A DNA stretch of 64,000 nt from Jiangella ureilytica (GTDB taxonomy: Bacteria; Actinomycetota; Actinomycetes; Jiangellales; Jiangellaceae): positions 124,001-188,000 of the forward strand of contig NZ_SMKL01000001.1 of NCBI RefSeq assembly GCF_004348545.1, in the 5' to 3' direction. Made by a program: the position numbers and the translations under genes. The notes below the pieces were generated by a model. It saw nothing but the letters and a program-made list of their open reading frames with translations, was not told the DNA's origin and did not search any database. Below, piece after piece: positions 25,051 to 26,203 of this stretch; position 1 is the first letter of the stretch, and each line of letters starts with the position of its first letter.

Positions 25051-25791
25051 ATGACGTTGCGGGTTGCGGTGATCGGCGCGGCCGGTCGCATGGGGCAGCA
25101 GGTGTGCCGGGCGGTCGACGAGGCCGCCGACCTCGAGCCGGCCGGACGGTTCGACGTGGGCGACGACCTCGGCGACCTCGGTGGCGCCGACGTCGCCGTC
25201 GAGTTCACGGTGCCGGGGGCGTCGCTCGCCAACGTGCTGCACTGCGTCGAGCAGGGCGTGCACGTGGTGGTCGGCACCACCGGCTGGACCGACGAGTCGA
25301 TGCAGCAGGTCCGGGCGGCGCTGGCCGTGCAGCCGAAGGTGGGTGTGCTCATCGCGCCGAACTTCGCCATCGGGGCCGTGCTCACCATGCGGTTCGCCGC
25401 TCAGGCGGCCCGGTTCTACGAGTCGGTCGAGGTGATCGAGCTGCACCACCCCGACAAGGTCGACGCGCCCAGCGGGACGGCGGTGCGCACCGCCGAGGTG
25501 ATCGCCGAGGCCCGCCGGGCCGCCGACGTGCCGCCCGCGCCCGACGCGACAGCCAGCGGCCTCGACGGCGCCCGGGGTGCGCGGGTCGACGGGGTGCCGG
25601 TGCACGCGATCCGGCTGCGCGGGCTCGTGGCGCACGAGGAGGTGCTGTTCGGGTCGCCGGGCGAGACGCTGACGATCCGGCACGACTCCTTCGACCGCGC
25701 CTCGTTCATGCCCGGCGTGCTGGCAGGGGTGCGCGGCGTGGTCGACCGGCCCGGGCTGACGGTCGGGCTCGACGAGATCCTCGACCTGTGA
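25051..25791 (+). CDS. dapB: 4-hydroxy-tetrahydrodipicolinate reductase
   Basis: DapB reduces hydroxy-tetrahydrodipicolinate in the lysine/diaminopimelate pathway, which supplies peptidoglycan. The 246-residue protein starts with the Rossmann motif [12 protein letters not shown] (residues 5-16). The catalytic region is [15 protein letters not shown], containing the conserved HH and K. VGTTGW is the nicotinamide-binding segment. ATG at 25051 is preferred over longer upstream reading. Its TGA is part of the first unit of a tandem repeat. dapA, its usual near neighbour, is 18 kb downstream. Confidence 0.96.
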
Positions 25792-26203
25792 GCGCGGAGC
25801 CTGTGAGCGCGGAGCTTGTGAGCGCGGAGCTTGCGAGCGCGGAGCTTGTGAGCGCGGAGCTTGCGAGCGCGGAGCCGAGCGCGGAGCCGGTGAGCGCGGA
25901 GCCGGTGAGCGCGGAGCCGGTGAGCGCGGAGCCGGTGAGCGCGGAGCCGGTGAGCGCGGAGCCGAGCGTGGACCGGTGCGGGCGGAGCCTGTGAGCGCGG
26001 AGCCTGTGAGCGCGGAGCCTGTGAGCGTGGAGCTTGCGAGCGCGGAGCCTGTGAGCGCGGAGCCTGTGAGCGTGGAGCCTGTGAGCGTGGAGCTTGCGAG
26101 CGCGGAGCTTGTGAGCGCGGAGCCGAGCGTGGACCGGTGGGGGCGGAGCCTGTGAGCGCGGAGCTTGTGAGCGCGGAGCCGAGCGTGGACCGGTGAGGGC
26201 GGA
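25788..26203. repeat. 15 bp minisatellite between dapB and the next gene
   Basis: About 26 units of a 15-base repeat, consensus CTGTGAGCGCGGAGC with frequent TTG-TGAGC, TTGCGAGC and GGTGAGC variants, fill the gap. The first unit contains the dapB stop codon, so dapB-frame TGA is reiterated in most of the early units. A longer block, GAGCGTGGACCGGTG plus GGGCGGA, occurs at 25965, 26125 and 26181. The third copy contains the GTG start of the downstream gene. No other gene is present in this interval. Confidence 0.9.

Follow-up and report, generated by a model that had tools for sequence, protein, structure and literature searches.

A tandem array of stop-start overlaps that may maintain translational coupling between dapB and a TPR-like membrane gene in Jiangella ureilytica

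The unit of mycobacterial interspersed repetitive units (MIRUs) is several tens of bases long. MIRUs are reportedly the subject of Supply et al. 1997. The review PMC12548453 presents them as apparently mobile repeats inserted at start codons, and their internal ORF is coupled with a -4 spacing that likely limits the effect of the insertion on the gene. Gene pairs linked by termination-reinitiation, reportedly the subject of PMC6728339 as well, form another related system: PMC10666635 reports that -4 overlaps couple translation, that coupling was nearly abolished in six E. coli/H. volcanii pairs once about 20 nt separated the genes and, in its section 7, that 15 nt of upstream reading frame were enough for reinitiation in two E. 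coli pairs. According to the same paper, the near abolition of coupling by short gaps is the supposed reason why overlapping genes stay together. A literature search, with most subscription journals outside its scope, returned no paper on tandem stop-start arrays as a relay.

The window analyzed here, a stretch of 64,000 nucleotides of the J. ureilytica genome (G000; contig NZ_SMKL01000001.1), contains a tandem array between dapB, a gene present in 39 of the 40 relatives searched, and a gene for a TPR-like membrane protein (Table 1). The best Pfam match of the latter, TPR_2 with 23.2 bits, lies under the cut-off of 27, and its start at 26193 agrees with the homologues of congeners from residue 1. 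Gene calls and peptides were obtained with a home-made caller. An unbroken chain leads through the array, namely, dapB-GTGA-68 codons-GTGA-54 codons-GTGA-14 codons-GTGA-TPR, with four links that are all -4 overlaps. The short stop-start overlap (-4 or -1 nt) that was looked for as a feature of termination-reinitiation is present at these four GTGA, and every link of the array has the geometry of termination-reinitiation.

Table 1. Features of the dapB-TPR junction in the window
Feature	Position	Strand	Remarks
dapB (dihydrodipicolinate reductase), upstream gene	25051..25791	+	Pfam DapB_C 1.5e-31, DapB_N 4.9e-23
GTGA, dapB stop / ORF A start, -4 overlap	25788..25791	+	ancestral-type GTGA junction in relatives
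Tandem array	25788..26192	+	405 bp = 25 units (dapB stop to TPR start): 21 x 15 bp, 3 x 26 bp, 1 x 12 bp
Small ORF A, 68 codons, VSAEP-type repeats	25788..25994	+	stop TGA at 25992
First 26-bp unit	25950..25975	+	shifts frame so that ORF A meets next GTGA
GTGA, ORF A stop / ORF B start	25991..25994	+	
Small ORF B, 54 codons	25991..26155	+	stop TGA at 26153
Second 26-bp unit	26111..26136	+	
GTGA, ORF B stop / ORF C start	26152..26155	+	
Small ORF C, 14 codons	26152..26196	+	stop TGA at 26194
Third 26-bp unit	26167..26192	+	immediately 5' of TPR start
GTGA, ORF C stop / TPR-like gene start	26193..26196	+	
TPR-like membrane gene, downstream gene, 148 codons	26193..26639	+	homologues adjoin dapB in relatives

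TRF reports a period-15 array at 25785-26180 (27.1 copies, 85% matches, score 519). An earlier sequence-only reading, which had correctly seen the array begin on the dapB TGA (25789-25791), had counted about 26 units; parsing gave the 25 units of Table 1, a copy number that is not certain since it was read from a draft genome (6.35 Mb, 168 contigs). The units are arranged head-to-tail, with many different variants and higher-order blocks, and the flanks are in order. The typical 15-bp unit is GTGAGCGCGGAGCCT, and the 26-bp unit is GTGAGCGCGGAGCCGAGCGTGGACCG. Most units had been read as repeating one 15-mer, which overstates their uniformity: the exact 15-mer CTGTGAGCGCGGAGC is present in 6 copies (0 expected), and the others are variants. 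The same reading was accurate as to a long block that recurs three times: GAGCGCGGAGCCGAGCGTGGACCGGTGNGGGCGGA is found in exact copies at 25952, 26113, and 26169 (0 expected in shuffles), the last of which includes the GTG start of the TPR gene. An assembly artefact or a mis-assembled repeat, which the draft state of the genome and the known weakness of short-read assembly at tandem repeats bring to mind, has a negligible probability in view of the many different unit variants, the ordered flanks, and an insert at the same place in the nearest relative, G001, the genome of which is a single contig.

Different searches were conducted for further copies of the array. A two-unit 28-base probe, allowing for 3 mismatches at most, matched the 6.35-Mb genome 21 times, and all 21 matches are inside the array; with at most 2 mismatches, it had no match in any of the other 11 Jiangella genomes. 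With the full array as query, a BLAST-type search revealed one further weak match of 43 bp (84%) in the genome, on contig C149, and, the dapB-TPR junction itself aside, weak matches in relatives. A dispersed element is ruled out, since no second good copy was found in the genome, in the 11 other Jiangella, or by the whole-array search. A segment with a 70% match to the array, G004 C2:88729-88922, was not taken as a homologue, as it sits among other GC-rich repeats, including a 7-bp array. Dense GC-rich repeats with a perfect 7-bp unit in 20.7 copies were recorded at L122 1299-1698 of the same genome and are by inspection unrelated to the array. The folding of 25760-26230 as RNA is unremarkable (z -1.16, with 13 of 100 shuffles doing equally well), and Rfam at the gathering threshold returned no family for 25000-27100.

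Tandem repeats were also observed at other gene edges, and gene-edge duplication seems common in Jiangella. A second large array of the window, at 58144-58611, consists of 3.9 copies of 116 bp that start from the stop of a minus-strand gene, the stop context being repeated in each unit. Repeats located just 3' of the stop of the TPR-like gene were seen in G001, G005, and G002 (L010, L011, and L016); they either resemble the gene's own last codons and stop or have repeated TGA contexts. At a convergent junction near G001:C1 4925874-4926086 (L139), an array of 7.6 copies of 28 bp duplicates the upstream gene's stop.

All 11 other Jiangella genomes have the dapB and TPR-like genes side by side. 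A direct 4-base overlap, GTGA, joins the dapB stop to the TPR start in 10 of the 12 genomes of the genus, and the two are displaced only in the window genome and in G001. The proposal that the array grew from both gene borders holds in so far as copies of the dapB stop and of the next gene's start are present in it, but in those 10 genomes the two borders are one and the same GTGA overlap. The G001 insert is of different length (191 bp) and contains a single -4-linked ORF of 64 codons, the peptide of which (VSTGERAG...) is unlike that of ORF A. This different peptide at the same place in the nearest relative, as well as the lack of a Pfam match for ORF A, argues against the idea that the array encodes useful small repeat proteins of the VSAEP type; ORF A is an open frame of 68 codons with a periodicity at the amino acid level, but such a function is highly improbable.

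Among the wider relatives, a recognizable TPR neighbor was found at 55 of 110 dapB loci, and removal of 6 same-genome duplicates left 49 distinct loci. Of these, 23 have a dapB stop of the DTGA type, and all 23 reach the TPR frame via -4 links: 19 in one step (direct or through an in-frame longer N-terminus) and 4 via small ORFs (G000, G001, G019, and G020). The remaining 26 have a different stop type and are therefore not linkable by -4 overlaps. G019 and G020 represent another genus, and their inserts are dissimilar to the array, yet also relayed. On the dapB tree, G000 pairs with G001, its nearest relative there (support 92/86), and G019 pairs with G020 (95/91) within a different group, which makes two or more independent origins of the relay likely. 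Short similar stretches were identified between the G000 and G001 inserts (58 bp at 78%, E 5e-5), and the G019 and G020 inserts have 49 bp in common at 78%; a comparison of the first pair of inserts with the second found no match.

A tandem-repeat survey of about 724 kb led to a second junction, namely, that of the Mg-chelatase-like yifB with dprA, both identified by Pfam. Nine of the 12 Jiangella genomes have a direct ATGA/GTGA overlap here. The junction is displaced in the other three (G000, G001, and G005), and in all three the dprA start is reached via -4 links: G000 shows a displacement of 155 bp with a 52-codon ORF formed by a truncated but otherwise nearly exact tandem copy of the start of dprA (G000:C80:68838-68993; L147), G001 one of 265 bp with two links (45 + 44 codons), and G005 one of 356 bp with a 119-codon ORF. 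In a frame-blind search for duplicated overlaps at 1,163 junctions, four had a score of at least 13, compared with 0.3 expected. Three of these are relayed, namely, yifB-dprA in G000, yifB-dprA in G001, and chorismate mutase-prephenate dehydrogenase in G001, and the fourth is a 12-bp in-frame repeat. At the chorismate mutase-prephenate dehydrogenase junction (G001:C1 near 4223792; L180), which is outside the final shuffle test of ten junctions described below, three GTGA with 11-bp spacing form two 4-codon relays.

As to the source of the array, 11 of 15 positions (12 of 15 for the CCG variant) agree when its unit is aligned in register with the opening 15 bp of the TPR gene, a likeness only modestly above chance given that 124 of 1,983 random 45-mers reach at least 11. 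The exact long block is stronger evidence that the start was copied. Since this block includes the TPR start and a dprA start is duplicated in the same genome, duplication across the overlap is the likeliest source. We consider it probable, judging from the sequence, that the array is a local tandem duplication of the stop-start overlap that is tolerated, as its units preserve the coupling of the downstream gene. The GTGA overlap of dapB and the TPR-like gene would have been expanded through local tandem duplication, which would have split one border. Each unit with an intact GTGA supplies one frame with a stop and the following frame with a start. Units of 15 bp, and that of 12 bp, stay in the frame opened by GTG, and the 26-bp units (2 mod 3) switch to the frame that is closed by the stop of the next GTGA, at which the ribosome can restart. 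Ribosomes that end dapB may thus restart at every GTGA and be handed on to the TPR gene, and coupling would outlast a 405-bp separation that would otherwise abolish it. Selection would act against uncoupling: arrays that break the chain would be lost, and those that keep it would vary freely in length, sequence, and peptide. The small peptides of ORFs A to C are probably by-products.

A chain alone means little, as -4 relays are not rare in the background. The surveyed DNA contains 643 co-directional pairs with a DTGA stop, of which 425 are linked to the next gene by a single step, 85 by at least two, and 133 are unlinked; a chain is hence present in 85 of the 218 non-direct DTGA pairs, many of them across very short gaps or landing inside the gene. 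No clear excess could be demonstrated from this count of 85 among 643 pairs, and a sequence relationship between small ORFs of equal length was looked for among the surveyed chains and not found. Reliance was therefore placed on the comparison of orthologous junctions, which covered 324 kb of G000, 2.0 Mb of G001, and 0.4 Mb of G009 and comprised 176 scored rows for 132 target junctions. The rows that kept DTGA and had a start displacement of more than 8 bp comprised 23 in-frame extensions and 4 relays, with no unlinked case among them; the 4 relay rows correspond to three junctions, one of which is ftsW-murG. One displaced row no longer has DTGA, and one row displaced by 8 bp or less keeps DTGA and fails the -4 rule, apparently being an 8-base overlap. 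This strict pass left out 15 rows in which the N-termini did not align, and the dapB-TPR pair itself was lost as well, the home-made caller having put the TPR start 24 bp too far in. A looser pass resulted in 31 displaced junctions (21 linked in one step, 6 relays, and 4 unlinked), and all 4 unlinked ones are without a DTGA stop. One of these 6 relays, a 26-bp case 5' of dapB in G001, was excluded: the start used as reference in the window probably lies at an in-frame GTG upstream of the true start of the gene. The stronger signal is that there are no unlinked cases among junctions that overlap in a relative.

Ten displaced junctions, pooled post hoc from several search routes and not all independent, were all linked (10/10), whereas dinucleotide shuffles with random frame predict 5.2 (product of probabilities, 8e-4); for the eight that remained after removing possible shared origins, the product was 3e-3. 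Given that these events were collected post hoc and that background chains are not rare, the shuffle result is supportive, not conclusive. It bears on the possibility that the array is a neutral minisatellite that grew by slippage at a GC-rich spot, the chain arising as a by-product when GTGA is duplicated in a genome with few stops, and translation of the TPR gene beginning at its own start, with no hand-over. Long open frames are indeed common at high G+C, shuffled inserts at other junctions were linked in 18 to 67%, simulated column-permuted units of the array were linked in 2,233 of 5,000 cases (45%), and the genus also has gene-edge tandem repeats without a coupling role, for example, behind stop codons. 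We nevertheless regard neutral growth as rather unlikely in the light of the ten linked junctions out of ten and of the complete lack of unlinked displaced DTGA junctions in the ortholog comparison, although, as mentioned above, unlinked DTGA pairs do occur in the surveyed DNA.

The sequence-only reading had further proposed that the number of units changes the spacing and the initiation of the TPR gene, so that the array would serve as a copy-number switch for phase or level variation. The location of a tandem array at a translation start and the difference in length between the two nearest species (405 versus 191 bp) are in line with this proposal. When whole-unit duplications and deletions were simulated, however, 19,824 of 20,000 sets (99.1%) still gave a path from the stop of dapB to the TPR start, either through -4 overlaps or in frame, since units of 15 and 12 bp are multiples of 3 and those of 26 bp restart at the next GTGA. 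In addition, a sigma-70 consensus scan, which covers this promoter type alone, found no promoter-like site at 25600-26800, and no terminator-like site was found there. The proposed effect on downstream initiation is thus probably wrong, and a switch is very unlikely. Under the preferred reading of a coupling-preserving array, these simulations predict that changes in unit number should be mostly buffered, usually without uncoupling the TPR gene, and the array is, from its sequence, a plausible variable-number locus. Random ordering of the array units preserved the link in 15,942 of 20,000 simulations (80%), which makes the window's own chain weak evidence for selection.

A more general view can be put forward tentatively, with slightly less than even confidence: local tandem duplication or insertion may have separated overlaps time and again in Jiangella and its family, with hand-over being conserved and a -4-linked chain of mini-ORFs persisting while sequence, length, and peptide turn over freely. 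Junction DNA would then act as a "translational wire," of which tandem GTGA/ATGA units would be a self-correcting, copy-number-proof form that requires no mobile element. Should an overlap be replaceable by a chain of tiny ORFs, two genes could move apart without loss of coupling. This would provide a simple explanation for short intergenic ORFs in annotations or ribosome profiling, would make repeated successive ribosome hand-over testable, and would represent a route to a MIRU-like architecture without a transposable element. It also predicts that the number of repeats is nearly neutral at these loci, a point of importance for their use as strain markers and for phase-switch readings.

Compared with known systems, the array shares with termination-reinitiation pairs the geometry of the original dapB-TPR, yifB-dprA, and ftsW-murG junctions, which is the same at each array link, but one overlap has become up to four, with short ORFs bridging as much as 405 bp. 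Like bacterial VNTR or minisatellite loci, it consists of short head-to-tail units with variants and higher-order blocks; unlike these, its unit itself bears the stop-start signal, and the length difference is known between species, from one genome each (405 versus 191 bp). With the MIRUs, as described in PMC12548453, it has in common the location at a stop-start junction and ORFs that are linked to the neighboring genes by -4 overlaps. Unlike MIRUs, the array is not a dispersed family (21 of 21 probe matches within it and one weak 43-bp match elsewhere), its unit is of 15 bp with 26-bp and 12-bp variants, and the inserts at other junctions and in other species mostly differ in sequence, with local duplication being evident in some. 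On the basis of this comparison, we would file the array as a locally grown, tandem form of the MIRU-type solution.
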